The position numbers and the translations under genes were made by a program. From assembly GCA_025403435.1 (NCBI GenBank), contig CM046333.1, positions 10,627,770 through 10,691,769 on the forward strand: 64,000 nt of DNA, written 5' to 3'. The notes under the pieces were generated by a model. It ran no database searches. It was given only the letters and a program-made list of their open reading frames with translations, and had not been told where the DNA came from. The DNA is from Artocarpus heterophyllus (taxonomy: Eukaryota > Streptophyta > Magnoliopsida > Rosales > Moraceae). This document shows positions 24,349-58,631 of this stretch, in pieces (the first letter of the stretch is position 1; every line of letters begins with the position of its first letter).

Positions 24349-24414
24349 TGGTATCAGAGCCGACCCTTTCCTGCCCAGAATTTTTTTCCTGCGTCTTTAC
24401 CCTAAGCCAGAACC

Positions 24415-33886: not shown

Positions 33887-35852
33887 TGTAACGCCCCTAT
33901 GTGGGGGTTAACAGTTTTTAATGAGATAAAATAAAAATAAATAATAAAAGTAAAATCTTAAAAATAAAATTTGCCCGGGACTTAAATGAAAACTCTCAAC
34001 TCAAAAATAAAAATATAAACGACAAATAAACCACAGTTTTAATGTAGCACCTTAAATTTAATAATATAAACTGTTGTCATCATCATTTTAACCCTCAACA
34101 CATTATAATACAGTCACAGAAAGTAACAATTGATGCTTACATTATCATGAAGAACATTCTCAACGATTGAAACAGTCCCAATGTAATATAGTTACATCAC
34201 TTCCTCAACTATATTTCTCGTAGCCACCTCACATTTAGTGAGTCCTGAAAAGATATAAACATAAGGGTATGAGCAACACTATGCTCAGTAGAGAAAACCA
34301 TTACTCACCTTTATCATTACCACATTAAAATCTGCATGGTTAGTAAGTTACATCATATTCCAGATTATGAGGTTTATTATGATCACATCTTATGGATACC
34401 GTAGTTAATCATTACCAAGTGTCATAATTACACATTTATACAAATATTAACAATCATCATTGTTCCTAGGTATCCATGTTAAATTGAGTATCACTCAACT
34501 CATCGAAACCCAAATGGGCGCACTTGATCACCCTATAAACATTCCAAGGGTGTTCCGGTGAGGGGACATCAAGCCCCGAGTCCTCACCAAATCGATTCCT
34601 GTACAGTGTGTTCTGGGACTTTCAACCCAAGGAAGCGTCATCGCCTTCCCCCTATTTTACCTTTTAGGGTATTCATGCCCAAGGACGTAACCGTCGCCCT
34701 CTTCATGTCTCACAATTTCTCTATATTGAATCATTATCAATAGAGTTAGTTTTCCTAACCATGCTTCTCAATTTATAACATGTGTCAATTCATTATGTTC
34801 CTCGCCGTACAATACAAGACGAGTCCATGTCATAGTTTCATATGTGATACACATATAATATCAGTTCAACATAGATATATATATATTGCAGCAAAACAAT
34901 CAATTTTAATTCTATAAAAACCTCACAAAAGATGAGTAATAGAATCCCTACCTTTTAAGCTTATCAACAGTCTCTTAATCCTGGAATCAATTAACGTTAG
35001 CTCCATACTCCCTTGATCCTAAGGCGTGCATAAGGACAATTAAAACTAAAGCACAACATACAACTACATTCATAAAATTTATTTTAATTTAATCTTAGAA
35101 TTTCAAGAAATAACCACTGCCCATAGAGGTATTACAAAGTTTAACAATATAAATTTTCTGTCTAGGGCATATACACTTAGACTTCATACATATGCTCCAA
35201 AATAGCAACAAACATATACTTAGGTTTAAGAACGCAAATTTGAATAATCCTTTAGTATAAAAGAAAATTTATAAATGAAAGACTAAATTTGTTCATAAGA
35301 TTCTAACCTCGGATTATGGTTAGTTGGAAGCTTGAAATGGCTTCAAAACAGGTTCCTTTAGTTCGGTATGACTGAAATTCTTGCTCAAATGGAGGTGATG
35401 GTGGCTGATTTTTATGGCTGCCTTGAAGAAGTTCTCTAAGTATTTTGCTTCAGCAAAGAAATGAGAAGAAGAGTGTGGGAACCGTGGAAGAGAAAGGAAG
35501 AAAAGATGAAGTCTTTGAAGAGAAGTGATGGAAACAATTATAGAGGAGACATGTTGAAGCATGTCACGGAGGAAATAAAGAAAATGAGGGTCAAGAGTAG
35601 TTGGAAAAGATATCCTTATGTCTCATCTAAAGACTTTAACACACATAATGCCAATATGACATTTTTGAGATTTATTAGAAGTTCTAAGGCTTTTTAGTAA
35701 TCATACTAAATAAATATAGGAGAATTTTAGAAAACTTAAAAATAGATAAAAATAAATATTATAAAATAAATTTAAATGAAGCAATTTTTTTTTATACATT
35801 AAAAATTAATTTAATTACCTCAATACCCGTTAGGAGAATAACGGGTGTCACA
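33887..35852 (-). repeat. Element A 3' LTR (left in window)
   Basis: 1966 bp, TG…CA bounded (plus strand TGTAACGCCC … GTGTCACA). A 7-bp stem hairpin (CCCGTTA/TAACGGG) lies near its right end at 35826-35845. Short ORFs inside it are not credible genes. Confidence 0.93.
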
Positions 35853-36807
35853 GCTCTACCCCCCTTAAAGAAATTTCGTCCTCGAAATTTCAATTCTAGC
35901 AATACTAGTAAAAATTATGATTCCACTATGATTCCAATTCTGAGTCTAAACCGTTAATGTTGTTTGTCCTCCAAATTTAAGTTATCGTATTTCCACTTAT
36001 TTACTTGCATAATAAATCTTACTCCTAAATCCCTCAATAAGAGTATTTCTGACAAGTTTCAACTTATAACACCGTATAATAGTCTAAGAATCTGATCAGG
36101 CATACATATTGACCATATCATGATTCCGGTCCTTCATTGTCCATGGACTGTGATTTACAATCACATTTAAGGAGATTGCCAGAGAAATTTTATATACTTC
36201 ATCTTTAGGTTCCTTTTCCTTTTTGAGTAAGGAAAAGTCAAATATATTTGATTTCATACCTCAACTAATAAACTAAAACATAATCATAAAACATATATCA
36301 CAAACACTTATATTCAAAACCATACATTAAACTTATTCATAGAGATATTAAACAGAATCTCAGAGTTGCAGACAAACCCGACATATTTTTCATTAAACAG
36401 CTATCCTCATGACACAAACATTCAACCCAAATAATATACTCATATTTCATATGGAATATCCCCATAACTGACTCTGGTACTTCCACATAATATTAACAGA
36501 ATATTACACATTACAATTATGATACGGATACGTTTCGAGAGTACAAGGCACTCCGTATACCAGCTATCCATATCATGCATGCTTAGAGGATACAAAAACA
36601 TCGATAAACAAAAGATCGGACCTTTAGAAGGATGCGTTTCGAGAGTATCAAGTACTCCGTATCCAGCCATCCCGGCATTAGGCTCAATGAATCTAAAAGA
36701 TTGAACAACAACGTACCACAAGAAACACAGAATACAAGGCAAACGGTTATTCGTAACACACGAAATACGGACACACATGCCTACATGCCAAAGATAAAAC
36801 AAAAAGA

Positions 36808-37497
36808 TTACAGATGGAGATTCAAATCAATTGGCCGCTCCCGGCTTTCCCTTTCCCATTCAAGCTTGGATGTTGCAGTGTCGGATTCTGGATGTATGAT
36901 TTGCATTTTATCTATCAATTCCTCAGCTGTTGAAGCAGTGACAAAGATTTGTCTCTCCGATTCTGTAGTGATGTTTTCTTCCACAGCGTAATCTAGAAAT
37001 TTCAAAAGACCGTCATAAAAACCCTTTACGTTCAGCAGTCCCAAAGGTTTGGAATAAAAGCCCAACAATTGCCGCCAAGCAACTATAAATATTTCCTCAA
37101 GAGTACCTAGACCACCAGGTAATGCTATAAAAGCATCAGAATTATAGATTATGTCTTTAAAATTTTTAGGGATACTCCTGACTCCTTCTCCCTTACCTAT
37201 GGCTTCCTTACAAAGGTTTCCTTCAACTGGAATATGAGGCCAAATTCTTACATCAGTAGCGTCACTAGACCTAGCTGCTAGTGCCATATTTACCATCATT
37301 TTTATACTACCACCCCCATAGATTATGTTAATCTTCTTGCGTGCTAGGACTTGCCCTAAGTGATTTGCAGCTTCTAAATAAGCTTTATCTTTTCCAAGGC
37401 TGGAACCACAAAAGACACAGACATTCTTTATTTTCTTCGTGGACTGGGAGGTAGACATATTTGGTTTATAGAAGTGGTTGCTTAATGTCTGCTCCAC
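36808..37497 (-). CDS. LOG-like protein carried by element A (229 aa)
   Basis: Belongs to the LOG / lysine-decarboxylase-like family, whose plant members release active cytokinin bases from their riboside monophosphates. Seen: Rossmann start VCVFCGSSLGK (residues 26-36), IIYGGGSIKMM (58-68), SDAFIALPGGLGTLEE (120-135, the family's PGGxGTxxE motif), and PLGLLNVKGFYDGLLKFLD further on. Oddity: the family's MHxRKAxM segment just before SDAF is replaced by IPKNFKDI (109-116), putting Asn112 at the usual catalytic Arg position, so normal LOG activity is doubtful. Residues 1-20 and the Glu/Arg-rich tail look like additions. The ORF has no introns although plant LOG genes are multi-exon, pointing to capture of a processed transcript or a non-plant source (inference). 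It is second in element order, about 600 bases behind the zinc-finger ORF. Confidence 0.85.
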   Translation of the reverse strand: MEQTLSNHFYKPNMSTSQSTKKIKNVCVFCGSSLGKDKAYLEAANHLGQVLARKKINIIYGGGSIKMMVNMALAARSSDATDVRIWPHIPVEGNLCKEAIGKGEGVRSIPKNFKDIIYNSDAFIALPGGLGTLEEIFIVAWRQLLGFYSKPLGLLNVKGFYDGLLKFLDYAVEENITTESERQIFVTASTAEELIDKMQIIHPESDTATSKLEWERESRERPIDLNLHL

Positions 37498-38101
37498 TTA
37501 GACTTCGGGTTCTACATGAGTTTTTAAAGATGAGAAATATACAAAAAGGGCTAAAGAGATAGACGAGTAGGTAATGAAAAGGTAATCCAAAGATTTAAAC
37601 AAAATCTTGTGCGGATAAGAAAGTAAGATAAGGTGATTGATAGTTTACAGAAAATCTGATTCACTTTTTGAAAAAGATTAGACTCTAATTGTATAACTTT
37701 TGACAATTGAGAACAATTTGACAGAAGACCCTCATGACACAACTGTAGACTTTTTGACAAATATACACCAAGTCTAGAAATTTAATATAAACGACAAATA
37801 CTGTAGAACTTTTGAAATTTGAGACACAAATCTTGAAATGTCTGGATAAGCTTTTCAAAATTCAAACATATTACTGTACCGTATGTAACGTGTCTGATAA
37901 GATAATATATTTTATTATATATATATTTAAGAAAATCATAAATTAAATAAGATATTAACACTTACTGTATCAATCTAATAATCACAATTATTTCAAACAC
38001 AAAAGCAAATATTCTGAGTAAAAGAAAAACACAAACTGTTGAACATCAGCTAAAACTGCTTCAAATAAGTAAAGACTAAATAACCTTTATAGAACGATGA
38101 C

Positions 38102-38623
38102 TTATTCCCCATCCAGTTTTCTTATGGCTTGGCAAACAGGATCTAAAAATACCATATTCCTGAGGCGTTGTCTTTCTGTATAAAATTTAGGCCAGAGTTT
38201 AAAAATAGCTCCTTGAACATATCCACTAGGGTGACCGTGAAGAGGAGGATGGATGCTATCCAAGTTCTCCTTTGAAAGTCCATCCCTACAAAACCTTATT
38301 TTATCCTCTCTATTCGTAGACATATAACCAGGTGAAGTACATTTACCGTTACAATTTTGTCTTCCACATTTGTTACAAGTGACCACGATGGCACGAGCTC
38401 TTCTTTTCATTGCACTACGACTGGTACCCGTTCCTGGTAAACCGACATCTTGACTAAAGTCACTCGGACGGATTTTCCCCTCTATCAACATTCTCACATC
38501 ACAAGGGATGCCAAAACGCATAAGAATCCACAACCGAGTAATTCTAGCCTTGTATTTCTTTCTGAGAATCTTTTGGGAGAGTGATGGGAAATACTTTCTC
38601 AGGTGTTGGTACTTTGGGTCCAT
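38102..38623 (-). CDS. Basic four-Cys zinc-finger-like protein carried by element A (173 aa)
   Basis: First ORF in element order. Seen: a basic N-terminal third (KKYKAR, residues 22-27), a hydrophobic segment followed by GIPCDVRML (38-46), a Gly/Ser hinge (64-70), a basic patch KRRAR (73-77), then Cys83, Cys86, Cys91 and Cys95 (CX2CX4CX3C). The tail has no recognised domain. The order of helix with GIPxDV, hinge, basic patch and Cys cluster is that of the small cysteine-rich nucleic-acid-binding proteins of carlavirus-like plant viruses (Pfam Viral_NABP type); those can suppress silencing. This is a by-eye resemblance. It could instead be a retroelement nucleocapsid derivative, though the spacing is not a CCHC knuckle. 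Confidence 0.6.
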   Translation of the reverse strand: MDPKYQHLRKYFPSLSQKILRKKYKARITRLWILMRFGIPCDVRMLIEGKIRPSDFSQDVGLPGTGTSRSAMKRRARAIVVTCNKCGRQNCNGKCTSPGYMSTNREDKIRFCRDGLSKENLDSIHPPLHGHPSGYVQGAIFKLWPKFYTERQRLRNMVFLDPVCQAIRKLDGE

Positions 38624-40221
38624 GATGAGATGAAAGAAGAGTAAATAGAAAGGAAAAATTAAGATAGTAAATTGCAGAATCCTAGAATTCCTTCTTCTTT
38701 TTAGAGTGAAAGAAGAATTTCTAGTGAAAAAGAAGAGGATTTGCGATTTAGAGAGAAAATAACAAATTAAGAGAGAAAAAGTGAACTCAGAGAAATAAGC
38801 TCGTAGGCACAGTAAACGTATATGTAAACAATAATTAAACCACTGTATATGACACGTATAGAGACCACGTGGGAGAGACAGTGTGAATCAAACTGATTTA
38901 GGATTTAAACTAGGCCCAAATGTTCTTAGTTGAAAATGGTCAGGTTGTTTCGGGCCTTAACACATTTAGAACGAGTTAAATAACAAACACAAAATTGAAA
39001 ACCAATTTGTATAAATCTTAAACCCAATTCAAGCCACTATAGATAAGTTAACTATGAACAACAAATCTAATTTAACGACAACAAGGATCTTCCTGAATGA
39101 TATTTAAAATCATTTCATAACAACACAATCTTCCAGCAACTCAAATAATTTTGTTTTAATCAAAACCTTATTGAACAATACATACACCCATATGTTATTG
39201 ATAATACTCAACATCTATCAATGGATTCATCATCATTGCTACCAAGGGTTTAGAATGTGACTAACCTTGAAATCAATACGATTTACGTCTTTCAACGTAG
39301 ACCATATCAACGAACAAAGACACTTGATGTTACTACTTAAGAACATCTACAATCCTCACAATTCTACTTATACAATATATAATTTCCTCATATAACAAAA
39401 CCTTAGGTAACCAAAAGATTCACATCTAAACATCTAAAACTTAAACATTTTATCGTAATTATCCAAAATTATTATAAGTGCCTTAAGTATTATGATTTAC
39501 TTAAGGAAACTCCTATTGATCATTTTTCTATTGCATCTATATATAAAGATTCACTGATACACTTAAATACAATGTACGTAACGAAATATTCTAATTTTGA
39601 GATTCATGCATTCTAGACTTTACACAGTCTCAACAGACCAAAAGTCTAACATTTATCTCTCTCAAGATTCAATACCATGATTCCCAACTTATATCATATT
39701 CCTCAAATATATAGAACTTTTAAGAAAAGACATTAACACTTATGTGCTCCATCGAATCCACACATAATCATTACTTAGGTTTGAATCAATTACGAAAAAT
39801 TTGGCATATCTATGTCAAACTTTAAAATCAATAAATCAAGCCTTATATTTTTTATTGTTTTTCACGAGACAAAAGGCTCTTAAATCCTCGTATCTATACG
39901 AATTTCTCATCGTTTATACGAATTAGATATGCTTATAGATCCTAATATTATACGAATCTCTCATAAGCATTCTACTTATAAACTCATTCCATATAATTAT
40001 CATTCCCTCATAACTATTAATACTTTCCTTCTATATAATTATTGTACTCATATAACCATTAGTATTTTCATTCTATGGCCTTTCCATGTTACATCCTTCT
40101 AGACTGTATAAATCAATGTGAAGGTTCATTTTGATGATGACAATGAAAATTCAGCTTCAAAACCATCTCAAAAATATATTTTTTTAAAGTGGTGCTACAC
40201 TCCCTAGGTTAACCGAACCTA

Positions 40222-40234
40222 GGCTCTGATACCA
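40222..40234 (-). other. Primer-binding site of element A
   Basis: Minus-strand TGGTATCAGAGCC, complementary to initiator Met-tRNA, seven bases inside the 5' LTR. Confidence 0.85.
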
Positions 40235-40241
40235 AAAATTC

Positions 40242-42207
40242 TGTAACGCCCCTATGTGGGGGTTAACAGTTTTTAATGAGATAAAATAAAAATAAATAAT
40301 AAAAGTAAAATCTTAAAAATAAAATTTGCCCGGGACTTAAATGAAAACTCTCAACTCAAAAATAAAAATATAAACGACAAATAAACCACAGTTTTAATGT
40401 AGCACCTTAAATTTAATAATATAAACTGTTGTCATCATCATTTTAACCCTCAACACATTATAATACAGTCACAGAAAGTAACAATTGATGCTTACATTAT
40501 CATGAAGAACATTCTCAACGATTGAAACAGTCCCAATGTAATATAGTTACATCACTTCCTCAACTATATTTCTCGTAGCCACCTCACATTTAGTGAGTCC
40601 TGAAAAGATATAAACATAAGGGTATGAGCAACACTATGCTCAGTAGAGAAAACCATTACTCACCTTTATCATTACCACATTAAAATCTGCATGGTTAGTA
40701 AGTTACATCATATTCCAGATTATGAGGTTTATTATGATCACATCTTATGGATACCGTAGTTAATCATTACCAAGTGTCATAATTACACATTTATACAAAT
40801 ATTAACAATCATCATTGTTCCTAGGTATCCATGTTAAATTGAGTATCACTCAACTCATCGAAACCCAAATGGGCGCACTTGATCACCCTATAAACATTCC
40901 AAGGGTGTTCCGGTGAGGGGACATCAAGCCCCGAGTCCTCACCAAATCGATTCCTGTACAGTGTGTTCTGGGACTTTCAACCCAAGGAAGCGTCATCGCC
41001 TTCCCCCTATTTTACCTTTTAGGGTATTCATGCCCAAGGACGTAACCGTCGCCCTCTTCATGTCTCACAATTTCTCTATATTGAATCATTATCAATAGAG
41101 TTAGTTTTCCTAACCATGCTTCTCAATTTATAACATGTGTCAATTCATTATGTTCCTCGCCGTACAATACAAGACGAGTCCATGTCATAGTTTCATATGT
41201 GATACACATATAATATCAGTTCAACATAGATATATATATATTGCAGCAAAACAATCAATTTTAATTCTATAAAAACCTCACAAAAGATGAGTAATAGAAT
41301 CCCTACCTTTTAAGCTTATCAACAGTCTCTTAATCCTGGAATCAATTAACGTTAGCTCCATACTCCCTTGATCCTAAGGCGTGCATAAGGACAATTAAAA
41401 CTAAAGCACAACATACAACTACATTCATAAAATTTATTTTAATTTAATCTTAGAATTTCAAGAAATAACCACTGCCCATAGAGGTATTACAAAGTTTAAC
41501 AATATAAATTTTCTGTCTAGGGCATATACACTTAGACTTCATACATATGCTCCAAAATAGCAACAAACATATACTTAGGTTTAAGAACGCAAATTTGAAT
41601 AATCCTTTAGTATAAAAGAAAATTTATAAATGAAAGACTAAATTTGTTCATAAGATTCTAACCTCGGATTATGGTTAGTTGGAAGCTTGAAATGGCTTCA
41701 AAACAGGTTCCTTTAGTTCGGTATGACTGAAATTCTTGCTCAAATGGAGGTGATGGTGGCTGATTTTTATGGCTGCCTTGAAGAAGTTCTCTAAGTATTT
41801 TGCTTCAGCAAAGAAATGAGAAGAAGAGTGTGGGAACCGTGGAAGAGAAAGGAAGAAAAGATGAAGTCTTTGAAGAGAAGTGATGGAAACAATTATAGAG
41901 GAGACATGTTGAAGCATGTCACGGAGGAAATAAAGAAAATGAGGGTCAAGAGTAGTTGGAAAAGATATCCTTATGTCTCATCTAAAGACTTTAACACACA
42001 TAATGCCAATATGACATTTTTGAGATTTATTAGAAGTTCTAAGGCTTTTTAGTAATCATACTAAATAAATATAGGAGAATTTTAGAAAACTTAAAAATAG
42101 ATAAAAATAAATATTATAAAATAAATTTAAATGAAGCAATTTTTTTTTATACATTAAAAATTAATTTAATTACCTCAATACCCGTTAGGAGAATAACGGG
42201 TGTCACA
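40242..42207 (-). repeat. Element A 5' LTR (right in window)
   Basis: 1966 bp, same length as its partner and with no difference found on reading. Followed by the AGAAG target copy at 42208-42212. Confidence 0.93.
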
Positions 42208-42674
42208 AGAAGTCATTCAATAAAATTAGAACAAGAATATAATACATTTCCAACAAATAGTCCAACATTTTTTTGAAAAATTTGATTAAATTACATGCAT
42301 TACCTCACACCACCATCCATCTAGATCAAACCCAACTAGAACAAGAATATAATACATTTCCAATAAACAATCACCATGATTTGTAAAATTTAATCGGAGT
42401 TCATCTAGATACATTTCCTTACACTACCATCCATCCCAACCAATCATGAAATATAAAATAAGATCAAACCCAACAAAAAACTAAAAACTCTAAAATCCCA
42501 ACCATAAACTAATAAAAGCACTAATAAATTAGCATAAAATTTACGAGAAGAACAAAGAACAAAACAAGTTAACACAACATAACATAGCTGATAATCCATT
42601 GACGGCGTACCATTTGGGCTATGAACAACAAATTCATGATTAATTCCTCTTCCCCAATGCAAGCATGTGTTTCT

Positions 42675-43118
42675 TTACTCGCTCTGCGTCGTATCCGGCA
42701 TTGTCGCGAAGCAGCTTTTGGAGCGGCCGAGAGGTCGACAATTCGCCGCGAAATCGTTCTTGCTCGGGCAATCCAGCGTCCGGCGGAGAAGGTTCTTCAT
42801 GGCGGAGATCAGGTCCTCGCCAGGATTGCTCGGAGGACTCGACGACCTGAACTGCTCGCAGAACTTCATGTGTCGCTTCACCGCCTCGCCGGTCCCGATA
42901 TCCTCTCTCTGCGATCTTAAAACCTCGTCCTTCACTGCCTCCGCGCACAGCCCGCAAATCCACCTCCCCTGGTACCTCTCCCTCACCCGCACAATGTACG
43001 CCGGCGTGCACTCCTCCGTCAGCCCGCAGCAGTAGCACCTCGCGAACTCCACGTCTCCCGCCGCCGCCGGACCGCTCTGCGATTGAACCTCTGCCTCCTT
43101 CAGAACCTTCGCCGCCAT
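42675..43118 (-). CDS. DUF1677 family protein, intact
   Basis: A single-exon ORF of 147 residues starting MAAKVLKEAE (an upstream in-frame ATG at 43151 would add 11 residues unlike the family). Plant DUF1677 proteins have no firmly assigned function. Visible features: two CX2C pairs, CYCC in ARCYCCGLTEECTP and CGLC in GRWICGLCAEAV, likely to bind zinc together; the conserved RVRERYQGRWICGLC block; and a Ser-rich region near SSSPPSNPGED. The tail SKSCFATMPDTTQSE runs straight to a stop. It is GC-rich and intact. It sits about 460 bases right of element A, which inserted on its 3' side. The right flank (43119 onward) should contain its leader and promoter. Confidence 0.85.
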   Translation of the reverse strand: MAAKVLKEAEVQSQSGPAAAGDVEFARCYCCGLTEECTPAYIVRVRERYQGRWICGLCAEAVKDEVLRSQREDIGTGEAVKRHMKFCEQFRSSSPPSNPGEDLISAMKNLLRRTLDCPSKNDFAANCRPLGRSKSCFATMPDTTQSE

Positions 43119-45209
43119 TTTTGCCCCCCCACCCCAAAAAACCCTAATCAAAATCCCCGAATCAAAAAATTATAATTACCAATAGCGGAACAAAAAATTC
43201 AAAAACAGATTTATACGTAATTGCAAAATACGAATATTCCACGCCCGCGCCAATATGGTAATCAAAATTTAAGGTCTTTCCAAAGAAATCTGGTTCTAGA
43301 TTTTCTTACCGTTTGACTCTGAAATTCGAACTCGAATCAGCTGTAATCCTTGCACCTGCAGTTACAGTTTCTCTGTTTTCTTTTTTGTTTTTCTTTCCTT
43401 TGCAGCTTTGAAACGAAAGAGAAACTGTAACGGCAAATTCAACCTTAATATTTATAATATTAAAAGAAAATAAATTTTTATCGCTCTTTTTCCCACTCGT
43501 TTTCCTCAACTTTCTCGCCGCCAGTGAGAATCAGCCCAAGAATCACATACATATCTCGGAGAGCCTTATTTGGGCCGCTCTGTTCCTCAGAATAATCAGA
43601 TTTCGAACACAATAACGGAAATTCCAGAAAAAGAAAAAGAAAATCCCACGAGAGATTTTCTTTCGAAATTTCTCCTGGTCTCTCAAAGCTTAAAGATTGC
43701 AATAATAATAATAATGGGTATGAATTAGAAGATTGATTGATCTTCGCGAGATTATCTTTCCTTATAAATAGAACCAGAGGAGAAGACTGTTCCCCAATCA
43801 TTGGCGTTTTGGAGGCAACAATTCTAGTGGCCATTCTGTGCAGTTTTCTAGTACTTCGCTTCCCACCGAGTTACTATGGATCCGCGTGAAATCGTACGTT
43901 TTACGGGAGATTTGCGGATATTATTTCGGGACGTGGAGTTTTTTCATTGGCCTATGTTTGGTCAGTTTGACGGAGATCGGAGGGTGTTGTTTTTTTTATT
44001 TATTTATTTTTCCATGTTTGTGTGTGTTTGTGTTGAATTTTTGATTAGTGGACCACCTAGCCCAGCTGTCACGACAATTACTTGATTACGTTCGGCCAAG
44101 CTTAAACGTGCCATTTCGTTTGTCTCTTCATTCTTTGCCCCACCGGCTCTTGTGCCCGTGTCGAAAATTTAATCTTTTACTTAAAGGAAGAAAAAAAAAA
44201 AAAAAGACACTTAGACGCACATACGTGTCTTTTTAAAAAATAAAAATAAAAATAAAAGAAAAAAGCCCACTCCTGTCGCTCGGGCTGAGTGGGAGTACTT
44301 AAAATAAAAATATTGTAATAAACAAGCTTTTTTAAAAAAAAAATTTATATAATCTGCCAATTTTTTAATAAATAAATTAATATATATTTTTGTTATGTAA
44401 ATATCATTTATATGTCTTTTTTTTAATTTATATATTCAGAACCTTAAAATACCCTGTAACTAAATATTATCATGTATTTAAATTTTTATAACAAAATTTT
44501 TTATTTTTTGAATAGTTAAATTAGAGAAAAAAAATATACACGTATTACATTGACATATTATCATTATCACTTGAAGTCTTAAAAAAATGAAATAAATGTC
44601 ATTGAATATCATTACCATTACATATCATTAACTTAATGATAATAAGATACACCAAAAACTTAATAAATACTATATCATTAATTTAATTATATATCACAAA
44701 AAAAGAAAATATCAATCACTTAAAGTCTTAAGAAATAAATGTCATTACGTATTATTAACTTAATGATATATTAATTATATAACCAGTAAAACACATAAAA
44801 AGACTTAATAATACTGTGTCATTAATTTAATTACAACATCTTAATTTTAATTTATCTATAAAACTCTATTATTAATTTAATTACAACACCCTAATTCTAA
44901 TTTGTCCGTAAATCTAACTTGTCGATAAAAAATCTCATCTTTTTAGGGAGTTTTAAAATCATTATTTTAGATACCAATTTAAATTTAAGCAACAAATACC
45001 CTAATTTTAAGGATTTTTTTTAAATATAATAATATCATAATCCGTTTAAAATCTTAAATACGCATATTATAGTTATTTTAAAAAAATAAATTAAAACTAA
45101 CAATATCATTATTATAGTCATTAATGTCTTTATACATATGCATTGGGACATATAAAGAATATTTATGAACTGCAGACATATTTTAATTCTACAAATAAAA
45201 AAAGGGTTA
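43119..45209. other. Intergenic, very AT-rich
   Basis: DUF1677 5' flank, then low-complexity AT-rich DNA with A-runs (44190-44260). Reading frames at 43478-43834 (-) and 43838-44236 (+) have no family features and I do not call them genes. Confidence 0.5.
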
Positions 45210-46590
45210 TATGTCTCATTAGGCCGGCAATACGGGTTGCGACACGACGACACGACACTAATCCGACACGTTTTTTTGCGGGTTAGTGTCGAAAAATTTG
45301 ACCACGGGTCATTTTAGTGTCTACCCGAAACTGACCCGTCAAAAAATGGGTCGTGTTCGGGTCAACCCGTCTGACACTAAAATGACCCGTTTCTGACCCG
45401 TATTAATTAATTAACTTTAAAAAAATTAATATTATTTCATACATAATATAAACCCTTAAAATATCAAACCATACCTCTCTTATTACTCATTTTCTTGTTG
45501 AAGTGATATGAAACTCTTCTAATTTTATGTTTTTTTTAATTATTATATATATTAATGTAGGCGGGTCATAGGCGGGTTGTGGGTCACAATCGGGTTACGG
45601 GTCAAAAACGGGTCGCGGGTCATTATTTTTTGACACTATGCATAAGGAACAGGTTGACACGGGTCGTGTTCGTGTTAACCCGTATCAAAACGGGTCGTGT
45701 TAGGGTTGAGAATTCTCAACCCATTCGTGTCACGGGTCGGGTTAGTGTCGACTTAATTTTTGTAAAAATTGACTCCAACCCGACACGAACCCGACCCGCC
45801 AACCCATCTTGCCACCCCTATGTCTCATTAACCCTTTTTTAAAATGAACAGATAGGCCAATTTTAGAGGCACTTAAAAATTTATATCTTTACAAACATTG
45901 TCAATAATAAAAGAACCAAGGGTCAATTTTACTTTTAACGCATTATCATTCTCATCTTCTTTTCAACAGAAACCCTAACTTATTTTCTCTTCCCCTTCTT
46001 TCCTCCTCTCTTTCTCCTTGGTGTTGCTGCACCATCGTCTCTGTTGTCATTGTTGTTGCCATTGCATATTGTCGATGGTTGTGGATCCTAATCTCCAACA
46101 GTGAGTGGCTAGAGCAGGCTTTATGTGATCTTTGGAGATTGGCGATTTGAGATCTCCGATGTGATTCGCGATTTCTGGTGGGCTTATGACAGTGGTGGCT
46201 TCTCTTCTCTTTTGCTTTAGCGAATGAGATGGCAACGGTGACATTTGCTGCTCTCCTATTCTCTCTTTCACTTTCCACTAGTTTTTTTCTCTCTCTCTCC
46301 GTAAAGCACCAGGCTTTCTAAATCTCAATCGTGCTCCAGATGACGGCTATTGGGACATATAAAGAATATTCATAATCTGCAGATATATTTTAATTCTATA
46401 AATAAAAAAGTGTCACATGTCTTATTAACCCTTTTTTTTAAGGGAATAGATAAGCCAATTTTAGAGGCACTTAAAAATTTATATCTTTACAAACATTGTC
46501 AATAATAAAAGAATTAAGGATCAATTTTACTTTTAACGCACTATCATTCTCATCTTCTTCTCAACAGAAACCCTAACTCATTTTCTCTTC
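45143..46590 (+). repeat. Direct duplication, first copy split by an insertion
   Basis: The sequence beginning TTGGGACATATAAAGAATAT occurs at 45143-45220 plus 45830-45985 (interrupted by the MULE-like element) and again, uninterrupted, at 46349-46590, where it ends near AACAGAAACCCTAACTCATT. The uninterrupted copy shows the pre-insertion state. Confidence 0.85.
45221..45818. mobile_element. MULE-type non-autonomous element
   Basis: About 598 bp with ends AGGCCGGCAATACGGGTTG and (inverted) GGGGTGGCAAGATGGGTTGG. The interior is packed with CGGGTCGTGT-like repeats in both orientations. An 11-bp direct duplication TATGTCTCATT flanks it (45210-45220 and 45819-45829), in the range typical of Mutator-like elements (9-11 bp). 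The empty site is visible in the second copy of the host repeat near 46430. Confidence 0.85.
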
Positions 46591-47165
46591 CTAATTATAC
46601 AAAACCTTAATTAATAAACCATTTAAAGTAAACATGTGTTTAACAAGTAACTGCATGGCCAAATACACATGATATTAAGATTAATTTTCTATATTGACAA
46701 AACATAACCCTAACTTCATTAGCAACCACCATAACCCAACTGAGGAGAAATTCTCGTTGGCCATGGTAGCCACCACTGATGGCCTGGACTTCGCACCTGA
46801 AGTCGCCGCCATCTGGAGCGTGATTGAGATTTAGAAAGCCTAGTGCTTTGCGGAGAGAGAGATAGAAAAACTAGTGGAGACAAAAAGAGAGAAAGTTGCG
46901 AAGAGAAGAGAGCAGCAACTGTCACCATCGCCATCTCGTTCGCTAAAGCAAAAGAAAGGAGAAGCCACCGCTGTCATAAGCCCACTAAAGATCACAAATC
47001 ACGTCGGAGATCTCAAATCGCCAATCTCCAAAGATCACATGAAGCCCGCTTTAGCCACCAGCTGTTGGAGATCAGGATCCACAACCATCGACAAGATGCA
47101 ATGGCGACGACAATGACAACAACGACGATGGTGCAACAACACCAAGGAGAAAGAGAGGAGGAGAG
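46005..47165. repeat. Inverted duplication, arms about 340-360 bp
   Basis: 46005-46346 reappears in reverse orientation at 46808-47165. The arms encode matching conceptual peptides on opposite strands (for example SQIANLQRSH and MVQQHQGEREEER), but neither is a recognisable protein. The 460-bp spacer holds the second copy of the direct duplication. Confidence 0.8.
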
Positions 47166-47194
47166 ATGGCGGCACACAGTTTCTACACAGTGAA

Positions 47195-48763
47195 ACCGCC
47201 CATATCCCCCTCTATTTATACCCTCCCTCTCTCTTTCTTTCCCTCACTCTCACTCTCTCACTCTTTCACTGTCTTTCTCTCGTCTCTCCCTCTCTGTGTG
47301 TCTCTCTCTTTCTCTCCTCTCTCTCTAATTCAACAATTTGAACTCAAACTTCATGTTTTTCAACGAATTGAAAGCTCGAGAACGCGATTGGATGATCACA
47401 AACTCGATTTAAAGCTTCGATCTGATGTTAGTTTTCAAATTTCAAAACTTATCCTAATTTTTCAAATTTCCTTGCATTTTGAAATTCAAGCTCATTTAAG
47501 TTAGAAAACCTCAATCTAAGTTAAAGAAACTTAAAACAGCTAGAATCTAAGCTTTGTTTGAAGAAAAACGGATTCGAATTAAAATTTTCTATTTCTTTCC
47601 ATTTTTCTCTATTTTCAGGATTTTTCAAAGTTTTTGTGTAAACCTTGTTTACTTTAGCTCAAAAGTATTTTATGATATTTTTCTATTATCTATAAATGTT
47701 TTCTATGCCTAAGGACTGAGAAAAACAGGTTGAAATGAGGATTGAGCTCATGAGGTCGAAAACCCGTACCTGAAAAATTCTAAAATTTTTCAGTTCGGCA
47801 GGTCGGATTTATGAGTTCGATAGGCCAGATTCATACATCCGGTAGGCTGAACCTGGAAAAGTTCAGCCGACCGGACTCGATTTTTCGGCATGCAGTTCGG
47901 CCGACCGAACCAGGGTGACCTGCAGGCCAACCGGGCATGGTGAAATTTTGTTATTTTTCATCTGTTTTTATTATTTTAAACCCCGATTGAAATTTTAACT
48001 TTATAAAATGATTTTATTAGTACAAATGACACACTAGGACACCAAGAAATAATTTAGCAACATAGGTATCTTAAGCTAGATACTGATAGACCTAGTTATT
48101 ATACATTTAAGGTTGTTCGTGAATCCGCAAAGCTAACTTATAGCGGACCGAGATTACGGTGTGGGACATCGACACGAGTATTGAAATAGGATTTCTACCA
48201 TTTTCCTTGGTAACCTAGTTTTGAATGATTTTAGCCTTAAAAGGATTTTTATCAAAATGTTTTAAGTGATGAATTGAAAAAAGGATTTCTATTAAATTGT
48301 TTTCAATGATTGAATGAAAAAAGGATTTTATTAATTGTTTTCATAAACAGCAGATTGAGGTGATTCTCATAATAAACTCCATAATGAATGTAAATGGAAA
48401 TATTTGGTAAAAAGAGATTTTTAATAATTATAGAAAATTTATAGAAGGGCATAATGTCATATCAGAGATCGAGTCGTGTAGCGTGCGACCTTAGGGGCAG
48501 GTCTTGAAACCCAACTGGGCTACTACGGTGGTGTTACATATATGGTTTGTCCAAGAAAAGAAATGATATTCTTTCTGGTCGACCAACAAATGGTTTTGGT
48601 AAGATTAATTTTTGTTGTATTTTATTTATTCATCTATTCAAGTCTATTTTCTAAATAATTTCTTGAGTAATGAAAGTTTACATTTAGAATTAAATGTTTC
48701 TAAAAATAAAGTCCTACTGAGCCTTTCGTTCACAGTTTGTTTGTTTTAAAACTTTAACCCCCT
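47195..48763 (+). repeat. Gypsy LTR remnant, left of element B
   Basis: LTR-like sequence, including a CCGACCGAAC-rich part near 47870-47930, that ends at element B's CCCCT target copy and continues at 56776. Its outer left end was not identified. Confidence 0.5.
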
Positions 48764-50736
48764 TGTAACGCCCCTATATGGGGGTTAACAGTTTTTAATG
48801 AGATAAAATAAAAATAAATAATAAAAGTAAAACCTTAAAAATAAAATTTACCCCGGACTTAAATGAAAACTCCCAACTCAAAAATAAAAATATAAACGAC
48901 AAATAAACCACAGTTTTAATGTAGCACCTTAAATTTAATAATATAAACTGTTGTCATCATCATTTTAACCCTCAACACATTGTAATACAGTCACAGAAAG
49001 TAACAATTGATGCTTACATTATCATGAAGAACATTCTCAACAATTGAAGCAGTCCCAATGTAATATAGCTACATCACTTCCTCAACTATATTTCTCGTAG
49101 CCACCTCACACTTAGTGAGTCCTGAAAAGATAAAAATATAAGGGAATGAGCAACACTATGCTCAGTAGAGAAAGCCATTACTCACCTTTAGGTTTTTATC
49201 ATTACCACATTAAAACCTGCATGGTTAGTAAGTTACATCATATTCCAGATTATGAGGTTTATTATAATCACATCTTATGGATACCGTAGTTAATCGTTAC
49301 CAAGTGTCATAATTACACATTTATACAAATATTACCAATCATCATTGTTCCTAGGTATCCATGTTAAATTGAGTATCACTCAACTCATCGAAACCCAAAT
49401 GGGCGCACTTGATCACCCTATAAACATTCCAAGGGTGTTCCGGTGAGGGGACATCAAGCCCCGAGTCCTCACCAAATCAATTCCTGTACAGTGTGTTCTG
49501 GGACTTTCAACCCAAGGAAGCGTCATCGCCTTCCCCATATTTTACCTTTTAGGGTATTCATGCCCAAGGACGTAACCGTCGCCCTCTTCATGTCTCACAA
49601 TTTCTCTATATTGAATCATTATTAATAGAGTTAGTTTTCCTAACCATGCTTCTCAATTTATAACATATGTCAATTCATTATGTTCCTCGCCGTACAATAC
49701 AAGACGAGTCCATGTCATAGTTTCATATGTGATACTCATATAATATTAGTTCAACATAGATATATATATTGCGGCAAAACAATCAATTTTAATTCTATAA
49801 AAACCTCACAAAAGATGAGTAATAGAATCCCTACCTTTCAAGCTTATCAACAATCTTTTAATCCTGGAATCAGTTAACGTTAGCTCCATACTCCCTTGAT
49901 CCTAAGGCGTGCATAAGGACAATTAAAACTAAAGCACAACATACAACTACATTCATAAAATTTATTTTAATTTAATCTTAGAATTTCAAGAAATAACCAC
50001 TGCCCATAGAGGTATTATAAAGTTTAACAATATAAATTTTCTGTCTAGGGCATATACACTTAGACTTCATACATATGCTCCAAAATAGCAACAAACATAT
50101 ACTTAGGTTTAAGAACGCAAATTTGAATAATCCTTTAGTATAAAAGAAAATTTATAAATGAAAGACTAAATTTGTTCATAAGATTCTAACCTCGGATTAT
50201 GGTTAGTTGGAAGCTTGAAATAGCTTCAAAACAGGTTCCTTTAGTTCGGTATGACTGAAATTCTTGCTCAAATGGAGGTGATGGTGGCTGATTTTTATGG
50301 CTGCCTTGAAGAAGTTCTCTAAGTATTTTGCTTCAGCAAAGAAATGAGAAGAAGAGTGTGGGAACCGTGGAAGAGAAAGGAAGAAAAGATGAAGTCTTTG
50401 AAGAGAAGTGATAGAAACAATTATAGAGGAGACATGCTTCAGCATGTCACGGAGGAAATAAAGAAAATGAGGGTCAAGAGTAGTTGGAAAAGATATCCTT
50501 ATGTCTCATCTAAAGACTTTAACACACATAATGCCAATATGACATTTTTGAGATTTATTAGAAGGTCTAAGGCTTTTTAGTAATCATACTAAATAAATAT
50601 AGGAGAATTTTAGAAAATTTAAAAATAGATAAAAATAAATATTATAAAATAAATTTAAATGAAGCAATTTTTTTTTTATACACTAAAAATTAATTTAATT
50701 ACCTCAATACCCGTTAGGAGAATAACGGGTGTCACA
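48764..50736 (-). repeat. Element B 3' LTR (left in window)
   Basis: 1973 bp, homologous to element A's LTRs. Carries a six-base loop inversion relative to A inside the GACATG/CATGTC stem at 50431-50448. Confidence 0.93.
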
Positions 50737-51525
50737 GCTCTACCCCCTTAAAGAAATTTCGTCCTCGAAATTTCAATTCTAGCAATACTAGTAAAAATTT
50801 TAATTCCATTATGATTCAATTTCGAGTCTAAACCGTTAATGTTGTTTGTCCTCCAATTTAAATCATCGGATCTCCACTTATTTACTTGCATAATAAATCT
50901 TACTCCTAAATCCCTCAATGAGAGTATTTCTGACAAGTTTCAACTTATAACACCGTATAATAGTCTAAGAATCTGATCAGGCATACATATTGACCATATC
51001 ATGATTCCAGTCCTTCATTGTCCATGGACTGTGATTTACAATCACATTTAAAGAGATTGCCAGAGAAATTTTATATACTTCATCTTTAGGTTCCTTTCCC
51101 TTTTTAAGTAAGGAAAAGTCAAATATATTTGATTTTATACCTCAACTAATAAACTAAAACATAATCATAAAACATATATCACAAACACTTTTATTCAAAA
51201 CTATACATTAAACTTACTCATAGAGATATTAAACGGAATCTCAGAGTTGCAAACATACCCGACATATTTTTCATTAAACAGCTATCCATATCATGCATGC
51301 TTAGAGGATACAAAAACATCGATAAACAAAAGATCGGACCTTAAGAAGGATGCGTTTCGAGAGCATCAAGTACTCCGTATCCAGCCATCCCGGCATTAGG
51401 CTCAATGAATCTAAAAGATTGAACAACAACGTACCACAAGAAACACAGAATACAAGGCAAACGGTTATTCGTAACACACGAAATACGGACACACATGCCT
51501 ACATGCCAAAGATAAAACAAAAAGA

Positions 51526-52215
51526 TTACAGATGGAGATTCAAATCAATTGGCCGCTCCCGGCTTTCCCTTTCCCATTCAAGCTTGGATGTTGCAGTGTC
51601 GGATTCTGGATGTATGATTTGCATTTTATCTATCAATTCCTCAGCTGTTGAAGCAGTGACAAAGATTTGTCTCTCCGATTCTGTAGTGATGTTTTCTTCC
51701 ACAGCGTAATCTAGAAATTTCAAAAGACCGTCATAAAAACCCTTTACGTTCAGCAGTCCCAAAGGTTTGGAATAAAAGCCCAACAATTGCCCACAAGCAA
51801 CTATAAATATTTCCTCAAGAGTACCTAGACCACCAGGTAATGCTATAAAAGCATCAGAATTATAGATTATGTCTTTAAAATTTCTAGGGATACTCCTGAC
51901 TCCTTCTCCCTTACCTATGGCTTCCTTACAAAGGTTTCCTTCAATTGGAATATGAGGCCAAATTCTTACATCAGTAGCGTCGCTAGACCTAGCTGCTAGT
52001 GCCATATTTACCATCATTTTTATACTACCACCCCCATAGATTATGTTAATCTTCTTGCGTGCTAGGACTTGCCCTAAGTGATTTGCAGCTTCTAAATAAG
52101 CTTTATCTTTTCCAAGGCTGGAACCACAAAAGACACAGACATTCTTTATTTTCTTCGTGGACTGGGAGGTAGACATATTTGGTTTATAGAAGTGGCTGCT
52201 TAATGTCTGCTCCAC
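51526..52215 (-). CDS. LOG-like protein carried by element B (229 aa)
   Basis: Same length and frame as the element A protein. I count six base differences: five change residues (N7S, V91I, K111R, and adjacent W-to-C and R-to-G changes near residue 141) and one is silent. The PGGLGTLEE motif and the atypical segment before it are the same as in A, except Lys111 to Arg. No stop or frameshift. The W/R changes fall just after the active-site motif and could matter structurally. Confidence 0.85.
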   Translation of the reverse strand: MEQTLSSHFYKPNMSTSQSTKKIKNVCVFCGSSLGKDKAYLEAANHLGQVLARKKINIIYGGGSIKMMVNMALAARSSDATDVRIWPHIPIEGNLCKEAIGKGEGVRSIPRNFKDIIYNSDAFIALPGGLGTLEEIFIVACGQLLGFYSKPLGLLNVKGFYDGLLKFLDYAVEENITTESERQIFVTASTAEELIDKMQIIHPESDTATSKLEWERESRERPIDLNLHL

Positions 52216-52819
52216 TTAGACTTCGGGTTCTACATGAGTTTTTAAAGATGAGAAATACACAAAAAGGGCTAAAGAGATAGACGAGTAGATAATGAAAAGG
52301 TAATCCAAAGATTTAAACAAAATCTTGTGCGGATAAGAAAGTAAGATAAGGTGATTGATAGTTTACAGAAAATCTGATTCACTTTTTGAAAAAGATTAGA
52401 CTCTAATTGTATAACTTTTGACAATTGAGAACAATTCGACAGAAGACCCTCATGACACAACTGTAGACTTTTTGACAAATATACACCAAGTCTAGAAATT
52501 TAATATAAACGACAAATACTGTAGAACTTTTGAAATTTGAGACACAAATCTTGAAATATCCGGATAAGCTTTTCAAAATTCAAACATATTACTATACCGT
52601 ATGTAACGTGTCTGATAAGATAATATATTTTATTATATATATATTTAAGAAAATCATAAATTAAATAAGATATTAACACTTACTGTATCAATCTAATAAT
52701 CACAATTATTTCAAACACAAAAGCAAATATTCTGAGTAAAAGAAAAACACAAACTGTTGAACATCAGCTAAAACTGCTTCAAATAAGCAAAGACTAAATA
52801 ACCTTTATAGAGCGATGAC

Positions 52820-53341
52820 TTATTCCCCATCCAGTTTTCTTATGGTTTGGCAAACAGGATCTAGAAATACCATATTCCTGAGGCGTTGTCTTTCTGTATA
52901 AAATTTAGGCCAGAGTTTAAAAATAGCTCCTTGAACATATCCACTAGGGTGACCGTGGAGAGGAGGATGGATGCTATGCAAGTTCTCCTTTGAAAGTCCA
53001 TCCCTACAAAACCTTATTTTATCCTCTCTATTCGTAGACATATAACCAGGTGAAGTACATTTACCGTTACAATTTTGTCTTCCACATTTGTTACAAGCGA
53101 CCACGATGGCACGGGCTCTTCTTTTCATTGCACTACGACTGGTACCTGTTCCTGGTAAACCGACATCTTGACTAAAGTCACTCGGACGGATTTTCCCCTC
53201 TATTAACATTCTCACATCACAAGGGATACCAAAATGCATAAGAATCCACAACCGAGTAATTCTAGCCTTGTATTTCTTTCTGAGAATCTTTTAGGAGAGT
53301 GATGGGAAATACTTTCTCAGGTGTTGGTACTTTGGGTCCAT
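52820..53341 (-). pseudogene. Zinc-finger-like ORF of element B, nonsense at codon 17
   Basis: Homologous over all 174 codons to the element A ORF, with a TAA (TTA on plus, 53291-53293) where A has a Gln codon. An internal ATG at codon 35 could give a shorter protein that keeps GIPCDVRML, the basic patch and all four cysteines. The rest of the frame is open. The likely identity is as for the A copy. Confidence 0.6.
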
Positions 53342-54797
53342 GATGAGATGAAAGAAGAGTAAATAGAAAGGAAAAATTAAGATAGTAAATTGCAGAATCC
53401 TAGAATTCCTTCTTCTTTTAGAGGAAAAGAAGAATTTCTAATGAAAAAGAAGAGGATTTGCGATTTAGAGAAAATAACAAATTAAGAGAGAAAAAGTGAA
53501 CTCGGAGAAATAAGCTCCTATGCACAGTAAACGTATATGTAAACAATGATTAAACCACTGTATATGACACGTATAGAGACCACGTGGGAGAGACAGTGTG
53601 AATCAAACTGATTTAAGATTTGAACTAGGCCCAAATGTTCTTAGTTGAAAATGGTCAGGTTGTTTCGGGCCTTAACACATTTGGAACGAGTTAAATAACA
53701 AACATAAAATTGAAAACCAATTCGTATGAATCTTAAACCCAATTTAAAGTCCACTATAGATAAAGTTAACTATAAACAACAAATCTAATTTAACGACAAC
53801 AAGGATCTTCCTGAATGATCCAGCAACTCAAATAATTTTGTTTTAATCAAAACCTTATTGAACAATACATACACCCATATGTTATTCATAATACTTAACA
53901 TCTATCAATGGATTCATCATCATTACTACCAAGGGTTTAGAATGTGACTAACCTTGAAATCAATACGATTTACGTCTTTCAACGTAGACCATATCAGTGA
54001 ACAAAGACACTTGATGTTACTACTTAAGAACATCTACAATCCCCACAATTCTACTTATACAATATATAATTTCCTCATATAACAAAACCTTAGGTAACCA
54101 AAAGATTCACTGATACACTTAAATACAATGTACGTAACGAAATATTCCAATTTTGAGATTCATGCATTCTAGACTTTACACAGTCTCAACAGACCAAAAG
54201 TCTAACATTTATCTCTCTCAAGATTCAATACCATGATTCCCAAATTATATCATATTCCTCAAATAAATAGAACTTTTAAGAAAAGAGATTGACACTTATG
54301 TGCTCCATCGAATCCACACATAATCATTACTTAGGTTTGAATCAATTACGAAAAATTTGGCATATCTATGTCAAACTTTAAAATCAATAAATCAAGCCTT
54401 ATATTTCTTATTGTTTTTCACGAGACAAAAGGCTCTTAAATCCTCGTATCTATACGAATTTCTCATCGTTTATACGAATTAGATATGCTTATAGATCCAA
54501 ATATTATACGAATCTCTCATAAGCATTCTACTTATAAACTCATTCCATATAATTATCATTCCCTCATAACTATTAATACTTTCCTTCTATATAATTATTG
54601 TACTCATATAACTATTGATATTTTCATTCTATGGCCTTTCCATGTTACATCCTTCTAGACTGTATAAATCAATGTGAAGGTTCATTTTGATGATGACAAT
54701 GAAAATTCAGCTTCAAAACCATCTCAAAAATATATTTTTTTAAAGTGGTGCTACACTCCCCAGGTTAACCGAACCTAGGCTCTGATACCAAAAATTC

Positions 54798-56770
54798 TGT
54801 AACGCCCCTATATGGGGGTTAACAGTTTTTAATGAGATAAAATAAAAATAAATAATAAAAGTAAAACCTTAAAAATAAAATTTACCCCGGACTTAAATGA
54901 AAACTCCCAACTCAAAAATAAAAATATAAACGACAAATAAACCACAGTTTTAATGTAGCACCTTAAATTTAATAATATAAACTGTTGTCATCATCATTTT
55001 AACCCTCAACACATTGTAATACAGTCACAGAAAGTAACAATTGATGCTTACATTATCATGAAGAACATTCTCAACAATTGAAGCAGTCCCAATGTAATAT
55101 AGCTACATCACTTCCTCAACTATATTTCTCGTAGCCACCTCACACTTAGTGAGTCCTGAAAAGATAAAAATATAAGGGAATGAGCAACACTATGCTCAGT
55201 AGAGAAAGCCATTACTCACCTTTAGGTTTTTATCATTACCACATTAAAACCTGCATGGTTAGTAAGTTACATCATATTCCAGATTATGAGGTTTATTATA
55301 ATCACATCTTATGGATACCGTAGTTAATCGTTACCAAGTGTCATAATTACACATTTATACAAATATTACCAATCATCATTGTTCCTAGGTATCCATGTTA
55401 AATTGAGTATCACTCAACTCATCGAAACCCAAATGGGCGCACTTGATCACCCTATAAACATTCCAAGGGTGTTCCGGTGAGGGGACATCAAGCCCCGAGT
55501 CCTCACCAAATCAATTCCTGTACAGTGTGTTCTGGGACTTTCAACCCAAGGAAGCGTCATCGCCTTCCCCATATTTTACCTTTTAGGGTATTCATGCCCA
55601 AGGACGTAACCGTCGCCCTCTTCATGTCTCACAATTTCTCTATATTGAATCATTATTAATAGAGTTAGTTTTCCTAACCATGCTTCTCAATTTATAACAT
55701 ATGTCAATTCATTATGTTCCTCGCCGTACAATACAAGACGAGTCCATGTCATAGTTTCATATGTGATACTCATATAATATTAGTTCAACATAGATATATA
55801 TATTGCGGCAAAACAATCAATTTTAATTCTATAAAAACCTCACAAAAGATGAGTAATAGAATCCCTACCTTTCAAGCTTATCAACAATCTTTTAATCCTG
55901 GAATCAGTTAACGTTAGCTCCATACTCCCTTGATCCTAAGGCGTGCATAAGGACAATTAAAACTAAAGCACAACATACAACTACATTCATAAAATTTATT
56001 TTAATTTAATCTTAGAATTTCAAGAAATAACCACTGCCCATAGAGGTATTATAAAGTTTAACAATATAAATTTTCTGTCTAGGGCATATACACTTAGACT
56101 TCATACATATGCTCCAAAATAGCAACAAACATATACTTAGGTTTAAGAACGCAAATTTGAATAATCCTTTAGTATAAAAGAAAATTTATAAATGAAAGAC
56201 TAAATTTGTTCATAAGATTCTAACCTCGGATTATGGTTAGTTGGAAGCTTGAAATAGCTTCAAAACAGGTTCCTTTAGTTCGGTATGACTGAAATTCTTG
56301 CTCAAATGGAGGTGATGGTGGCTGATTTTTATGGCTGCCTTGAAGAAGTTCTCTAAGTATTTTGCTTCAGCAAAGAAATGAGAAGAAGAGTGTGGGAACC
56401 GTGGAAGAGAAAGGAAGAAAAGATGAAGTCTTTGAAGAGAAGTGATAGAAACAATTATAGAGGAGACATGCTTCAGCATGTCACGGAGGAAATAAAGAAA
56501 ATGAGGGTCAAGAGTAGTTGGAAAAGATATCCTTATGTCTCATCTAAAGACTTTAACACACATAATGCCAATATGACATTTTTGAGATTTATTAGAAGGT
56601 CTAAGGCTTTTTAGTAATCATACTAAATAAATATAGGAGAATTTTAGAAAATTTAAAAATAGATAAAAATAAATATTATAAAATAAATTTAAATGAAGCA
56701 ATTTTTTTTTTATACACTAAAAATTAATTTAATTACCTCAATACCCGTTAGGAGAATAACGGGTGTCACA
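54798..56770 (-). repeat. Element B 5' LTR (right in window)
   Basis: 1973 bp, equal in length to its partner. The minus-strand primer site lies just left of it (about 54778-54790). Confidence 0.93.
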
Positions 56771-56775
56771 CCCCT

Positions 56776-58487: not shown

Positions 58488-58631
58488 TAAGGAGAAATAT
58501 AATTCAGTGTTTATGATGTATAACTTCTGCTTAAGTTTTTTGTTTTGTTTGATTGACGTTAAGGAGAAATATAATTCAGTGTTTATGATGTATAACTTCT
58601 GCTTAAGTTTTTTGTTATGTTTGATTGACGT
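58488..58631 (+). repeat. 72-bp tandem duplication
   Basis: Two adjacent copies beginning AAGGAGAAATATAATTCAGT (58489 and 58561), nearly identical. A TA dinucleotide run follows at 58693-58719. Confidence 0.9.

Follow-up and report, generated by a model that had tools for sequence, protein, structure and literature searches.

What do two protein-coding genes do in a retrotransposon that has no replication genes of its own? The question is raised by a 64,000-nucleotide stretch of the Artocarpus heterophyllus genome (GenBank assembly GCA_025403435.1, contig CM046333.1, positions 10,627,770 to 10,691,769; "the window", whose coordinates are used below). It holds two complete long terminal repeat (LTR) retrotransposons of one family, A and B, neither of which has its own replication genes. 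Both carry, in element sense, the same two open reading frames (ORFs): ORF1, a relative of the cysteine-rich proteins (CRPs) of flexiviruses, and ORF2, derived from the LOG (LONELY GUY) family of cytokinin enzymes. The escape of plant retrotransposons from small-RNA silencing is a long-standing question, which a retrotransposon-borne relative of a suppressor class makes directly testable. The reading that we favour, at slightly better than even chances, is that of a non-autonomous family moved in trans by a gypsy-type partner, in which ORF1 would act as a silencing suppressor and ORF2 as a ligand of TOPLESS-type corepressors. The two elements are composed as follows.

33887..42207, minus strand: element A, complete non-autonomous LTR retrotransposon, 8321 bp
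40242..42207, minus strand: 5' LTR of A, 1966 bp (sense is the minus strand)
33887..35852, minus strand: 3' LTR of A, matching its 5' LTR exactly
33882..33886 and 42208..42212, no strand: target duplication AGAAG of A, copies 1 and 2
40223..40234, minus strand: primer binding site of A, TGGTATCAGAGC
35853..35869, minus strand: polypurine tract of A
38102..38623, minus strand: ORF1 of A, 173 aa, putative flexivirus-type CRP
38339..38377, minus strand: cysteine cluster C83-x2-C86-x4-C91-x3-C95 of ORF1 of A
36808..37458, minus strand: ORF2 of A, 216 aa, LOG-derived protein
36811..36825, minus strand: C-terminal LxLxL (EAR-like) motif of ORF2 of A
48764..56770, minus strand: element B, complete, same family as A, 8007 bp
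54798..56770, minus strand: 5' LTR of B, 1973 bp
48764..50736, minus strand: 3' LTR of B, matching its 5' LTR exactly
48759..48763 and 56771..56775, no strand: target duplication CCCCT of B, copies 1 and 2
54779..54790, minus strand: primer binding site of B
50737..50752, minus strand: polypurine tract of B
52820..53239, minus strand: downstream open part of ORF1 of B, 139 aa
51526..52176, minus strand: ORF2 of B, 216 aa, open, LOG-derived protein

The two LTRs of an element show no mismatch (0/1966 in A, 0/1973 in B), and those of A differ from those of B at 38 of 1964 positions. Read along the minus strand, the 5' LTR is followed by 7 nt, the TGGTATCAGAGC primer site, a non-coding stretch, ORF1, ORF2 and a purine tract that directly precedes the 3' LTR. 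In A, 1618 bp of non-coding sequence separate the LTR from ORF1, 643 bp separate the two ORFs, and the 955 bp between ORF2 and the 3' LTR end in the purine tract. The primer site is presumably of the initiator-Met tRNA type; together with the LTR ends and the purine tract, it makes this pol-less element look Tekay-like to us. The full ORF1 frame of B is broken by a premature stop near codon 17. Neither gag nor pol was found in A among the 10 of its 19 internal frames of at least 45 aa that were compared with Pfam, the sole match being sub-threshold and to an unrelated family, and a tblastn search of the whole window with one gypsy integrase fragment gave no match. The search of the whole window with Rfam placed no family at threshold in the element, and five matches with E-values of 2-3.4 are taken as chance. 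The original prediction had described two insertions with distinct target duplications, each with both ORFs on the minus strand between LTR, primer site and polypurine tract, and without gag-pol; its coordinates are exact and this description is confirmed.

Downstream of ORF2 in A, a motif of 43-44 nt occurs in two copies (36526-36672, minus strand), with one apparent compensatory pair change seen by eye. The downstream copy is gone from B through a 163-bp deletion. The motif was dropped as an RNA structure, its stability being not above that of shuffles (the first stretch was placed 3 nt off).

The family was followed through the host genome (985 Mb, 334 contigs) with 501 bases of the LTR and with ORF1. 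The LTR search yields 1174 first-look candidates, of which the best 40, all at 100%, were scored; 32 of these form 16 linked pairs, A included, spaced by 6190-6617 bases. Twenty sibling loci were fetched, namely the 15 other linked pairs and 5 of the 8 unpaired LTR matches. ORF1 and ORF2 regions are present in the same order in 17 of them (15/15 paired, 2/5 unpaired); the remaining three, all unpaired, comprise one locus with a partial ORF1 and without ORF2, and two with the LTR alone. In agreement with the absence of gag-pol noted at first, none of the 17 siblings with both ORF regions has an integrase match inside the element (one integrase query, tblastn; gag was not sought), the sole match among the sibling loci (L027) lying outside an element. 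The ORF1 search gives 5822 first-look candidates, and the best 150, which lie on contigs C1-C9, all match the query at each of its 173 residues and contain no stop. These candidates are first-look matches rather than confirmed copies, and scoring the best alone favours intact ones.

Sixteen elements, among them A and B, were measured in full: 12 lack any LTR mismatch (some with one or two gap positions), and in 13 the target duplications are exact; L037 was measured in part, and L040 and L044 lie outside the 16. The siblings are young by choice, since they were picked by LTR identity to A. The family is large, young, high-copy and recently moved. It contains two LTR length classes, of ~1.97 kb and ~2.35 kb, the latter in L025, L028, L030, L031, L033-L037 and L039, with ~380 extra bases near LTR position 780. 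A duplicated locus is rejected as the origin of the pair, since the target duplications of A and B differ and 17 of 20 sibling loci elsewhere share both ORFs; the cargo is tied to the element family, as the original prediction held.

By the sequence profiles that its relatives match, ORF1 is homologous to flexivirus CRPs. A first search found 15 relatives and a profile search 855, of which 120 are listed; named sources include Populus, Xanthoceras, Acer, Rhamnella, Hibiscus and Orobanche, and the long relatives in other plants are ~43-60% identical. In an alignment of 126 sequences (the window ORF1 and 125 relatives), the Pfam families Viral_NABP and Carla_C4 are each matched by 97 at E<=1e-3, the window ORF1 not being among them. 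C83, C86, C91 and C95 are kept in 91-98% of the aligned sequences, and the basic block 72-77 in 90-94%. The "zinc-finger ORF" of the original prediction is refined to a CRP relative. With a median of 182 aa, the ORF1-type proteins fall between the models of Carla_C4 (91) and Viral_NABP (227) in length. The structural model built from the 126 sequences (pLDDT 78.9, pTM 0.55) supersedes a 17-sequence fold of mean pLDDT 53. Compared with viral structures it gives 29 matches, all weak, of which 21 are named proteins of the CRP class from what we take to be flexiviruses: 9 bear the name "RNA silencing suppressor", another 11 are labelled as binding nucleic acid or RNA, and the top match is the "15kDa protein" from cherry mottle leaf virus. 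Of the other eight, three are unnamed and rank among the 21, and the last five are unrelated or unnamed. A PDB search with the model returns a single match at E 9.9, and the scans of viral contigs contain no ORF1 relative. Several viral CRPs are silencing suppressors with a nuclear localisation signal and a zinc finger (PMC12172455; papers are cited by PubMed Central (PMC) accession, and statements taken from them reflect the excerpts available).

A relative of ORF1 is also found next to a recognisable pol gene. Run against contigs of prokaryote genomes, the ORF1 profile matched one contig of 3330 bp (L016), filed in a bacterial bin and probably a contamination, since its content is plant-like. 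It carries the open, integrase-bearing end of a pol (rve E 2.4e-16, H2C2 E 1.4e-12), presumably from a gypsy element of Athila type. Behind this pol end, in the same orientation, come an ORF1 relative of 182 aa and then a purine tract. This relative passes the Viral_NABP cut-off (34.2 bits against 23) and stays below that of Carla_C4 (19.8 against 20.9). The ORF1-type gene thus also occurs in a different element, as an additional ORF after pol. Searched with this relative, the host genome yields 5265 candidates, the best 150 showing 51-52% identity over nearly the full length. In 148 of them there is a single TAA, which by its position should be the terminal stop, and two have a TAG besides. 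As none of the 150 scored closer to L016, no second ORF1 type is seen in the host genome.

ORF2 is a LOG by Pfam and PDB matches. Both window copies retain the PGGxGTxxE motif and Glu122; compared with host-type LOGs, they have Asn at Arg99 and Phe at Lys100 (numbering of PMC4979012). In a bacterial LOG, alanine at the AMP-binding or catalytic residues nearly abolishes activity, one serine excepted (PMC4979012). Cytokinin activation has probably been lost from ORF2, because it has neither the catalytic Arg nor the Lys next to it: of the "cytokinin-activation-family gene" first proposed, the LOG descent stands and the activity probably does not.

The C-terminal LxLxL of ORF2 was traced in a set of 122 LOGs (120 listed of 5301 matches, and the two window copies), divided into six host-type proteins, nine motif-less proteins adjoining them in the tree, and the other 107 as the ORF2 group. 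The exact C-terminal motif is present in 83 of 89 ORF2-group proteins of 210-230 aa, compared with 0/6 and 0/9 in the host-type groups. Lys100 is lost in 105 of the 107 ORF2-group proteins, and Arg99 is kept in 97. A quick tree separates the six host LOGs, with 100% support in the Shimodaira-Hasegawa-like approximate likelihood ratio test (SH-aLRT). With the midpoint as divide, the motif-bearing P0121 and P0132 fall with the host LOGs; the window ORF2 and a near-copy share a long branch, at 1.18 changes per site. The remaining LOGs of the ORF2 group would, to judge by their copy number and names, be transposon-borne too. LxLxL is one of two forms of the EAR motif (PMC9956375), and TOPLESS-interacting effectors of pathogens are known (PMC8126959, PMC7446885).

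Whether ORF1 and ORF2 are linked in other plants was judged from the sizes of the records. P0056 and P0149 are on records of equal size (8723), the sole such match larger than 2 kb when contigs shorter than 100 kb are compared; by chance, any match above 2 kb arises in 33% of trials and one above 5 kb in 2.4%, and the linkage is suggestive only. Six Xanthoceras LOGs (P0017, P0018, P0105, P0108, P0117, P0126) are near host type, lack LxLxL and keep Arg99 and Lys100; the record of P0017 has the same size as that of the ORF1 relative P0147. The scan of viral contigs gave 15 LOG matches on contigs classed as viral, the best segments with 25-62% identity.

Variation was compared among 19 copies (A, B and 17 siblings), with a test that treats copies without shared ancestry. 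Frames are intact in 14 of 19 copies for ORF1 and 17 of 19 for ORF2, and both ORFs show an excess of synonymous variants. Counted once, the 36 variants of ORF1 comprise 18 synonymous (8.9 expected, P=0.0004), 15 nonsynonymous and 3 stops, and the 23 of ORF2 comprise 12 synonymous (6.5 expected, P=0.0098), 11 nonsynonymous and no stop, with no nonsynonymous variant beyond codon 129. The mean pairwise ratio of nonsynonymous to synonymous polymorphism (pN/pS) is 0.15 for ORF1 and 0.26 for ORF2 (17 indel-free copies each). Variants per site reach 0.069 in ORF1, 0.035 in ORF2, 0.064 in the spacer, 0.103 in the 5' stretch and 0.055 in the 3' stretch. Between A and B, the 139 ORF1 codons compared show 6 synonymous and 4 nonsynonymous changes, plus the upstream stop in B.

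In the mechanism that we favour, the gag-pol of a gypsy-type partner would copy and move the element in trans, and two accessory proteins encoded in sense would replace gag-pol. ORF1 would most likely dampen the RNA silencing directed at the element or its partner. Whereas plant LOG genes have introns, ORF2 is a single unbroken frame and is therefore probably a LOG captured as cDNA; it would most likely engage TOPLESS-type corepressors rather than act as a cytokinin enzyme, since two active-site residues are absent and LxLxL stands at its C-terminus. This suggests that the family spreads by disarming host defences. B moved recently with a broken ORF1, so either the ORF proteins can work in trans or some copies can do without them.

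Several results weigh against this mechanism. No autonomous partner turned up, no search aimed at one having been made, and the Tekay label is tentative. ORF1 of A scores 16.3 bits against Viral_NABP (E 0.0096), below the cut-off of 23 bits, and is also below cut-off for Carla_C4 (E 0.1). The best viral fold match has an E-value of 1.9e-3 and the best 24 have TM-scores to the ORF1 query of 0.24-0.35; since no match reaches E 1e-3, weight is placed on the consistency of the matches and not on a single score. Of the 19 copies, 5 have a broken ORF1 and 2 a broken ORF2; B moved despite the stop in its ORF1; and the selection test ignores the shared ancestry of the copies. The variant density of ORF1 is not below that of the spacer or the 3' stretch, ORF2 alone being lower, and the ORF2s of A and B differ by 1 synonymous and 4 nonsynonymous codon changes, with no sign of constraint. 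Loss of LOG activity is not general, as Arg99 is kept in 97 of the 107 proteins, and the absence of LxLxL from all 15 host-type and adjoining proteins is partly by choice, because these groups were drawn after the motif table and tree had been seen.

Some of the same results could mean that the genes do nothing for the element. Two genes captured once might look intact only through a very young burst, as the 12 of 16 measured LTR pairs without mismatch, the movement of B with a broken ORF1 and the spacer-like variant density of ORF1 would allow. Such neutral cargo is unlikely, however, given the synonymous excess and low pN/pS of both ORFs, the long ORF1 relatives in other plants at ~43-60% identity, and the LxLxL end kept in ORF2 relatives. 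We consider about as improbable a role of ORF1 as nucleocapsid substitute, a basic zinc-finger RNA-binding protein that would package element RNA into partner particles. Its four conserved cysteines and basic stretch would suit this role, as would the failure to find gag in the 10 of 19 internal frames of A compared with Pfam; but the L016 relative stands after the integrase as an extra gene and not in gag position (the part upstream of the contig start is not seen), and most annotations of the viral relatives of ORF1 name silencing suppression or nucleic-acid binding.

For ORF2, the competing proposal is that it still works as a LOG, in which case a local rise in cytokinin would increase cell division and hence element replication. 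PGGxGTxxE and Glu122 in both window copies, the Pfam and PDB matches to LOGs and the Arg99 kept by 97 of 107 group proteins agree with it, whereas the window copies lack both the catalytic Arg99 and Lys100, and Lys100 is lost in 105 of 107; we hold it to be quite improbable. Hardly any credence is left for the ORFs marking an endogenous flexivirus rather than a transposon: the likeness of ORF1 to a flexivirus protein is set against LTRs, target duplications, primer site, purine tract and many copies, and no viral replicase, coat or movement protein is found among the 13 window ORFs given to Pfam (5 + 8). The anatomy of the element rejects it.

Known systems close to this family include non-autonomous plant LTR retrotransposons of the LARD (large retrotransposon derivative) type. 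Like these and maize Bs1, A and B have LTRs, primer site and purine tract without gag-pol; Bs1 is a gene-transducing element with captured host sequence (PMC7264820). Here, in contrast, both ORFs recur in 17 of 20 sibling loci, are mostly intact and have relatives in other plants. The additional ORFs of gypsy elements (Athila, Retand, the 5' additional ORF of Tekay) offer a second likeness as extra conserved ORFs, L016 having one in sense after the integrase. For those of Tekay, weak similarity of structure in maize and sorghum has led to the suggestion of a role in silencing (sunflower Tekay study, PMC11728184). In the excerpts of PMC7264820, PMC11963269 and PMC11728184, however, such ORFs are env-like, antisense or dsRNA-binding-like, none being described as a flexivirus CRP or a LOG.

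ORF1 resembles the CRPs of carlaviruses, vitiviruses, trichoviruses and mandariviruses in Pfam families, in the cysteine cluster with basic stretch and, by weak matches, in predicted fold; it differs in being encoded by an LTR retrotransposon and is distant in sequence. ORF2 shares fold family and PGGxGTxxE with plant LOG enzymes, but lacks Arg99 and Lys100, has LxLxL added C-terminally, and is an unbroken frame inside a mobile element. Insect retrotransposons carry RNA-virus-derived helicase domains with weak silencing suppression in a plant assay (PMC6338049), likewise an RNA-virus gene carried by a retrotransposon; there, however, the gene is another one, in insects, and part of the element's own proteins. 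Neither the ORF pair nor a flexivirus CRP in an LTR retrotransposon is described in the excerpted open-licence PMC literature, which included gene capture (PMC13317346), Retand (PMC11963269), soybean Diaspora (PMC1142308) and RNA-virus insertions in plants (PMC3136472); the earlier statement that no plant LTR family with this pair had been described is not contradicted by it.

If the favoured mechanism is true, plus-strand RNA viruses and plant LTR retrotransposons share genes, and a cytokinin enzyme has been recast as a likely corepressor ligand. A wider and tentative proposal, to which we give well below even chances, is that eudicot LTR retrotransposons and flexiviruses share a mobile anti-defence module. 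It would consist of a CRP suppressor in at least two kinds of gypsy element, accompanied here by a LOG turned TOPLESS ligand, and would let replication-defective elements reach very high copy number; viral CRPs may even derive from such elements.

The remainder of the window contains other mobile and genic sequences. At 24406-28568 (plus strand) lies a Ty1/copia element with gag and reverse transcriptase domains; its open sequence is divided over three successive frames, and it is therefore probably broken. At 330-3560 (plus strand) there are DNA-transposon pieces (Transpos_assoc, DUF4218, DUF4216), which we take to be of CACTA type. A DUF1677 plant gene (42675-43118, minus strand) has its near end ~470 bp past the end of element A. 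Fragments of a protein kinase (12657-13247, plus strand), a Cupin (15791-16507, plus strand) and a Ctr copper transporter (29915-30487, minus strand) are also present. Between A and B, 45142-47169 harbors nested direct and inverted repeats with arms of 262 and 89 nt, 88-89% complementary, and a 72-bp tandem duplication, 99% identical, is found at 58487-58630.

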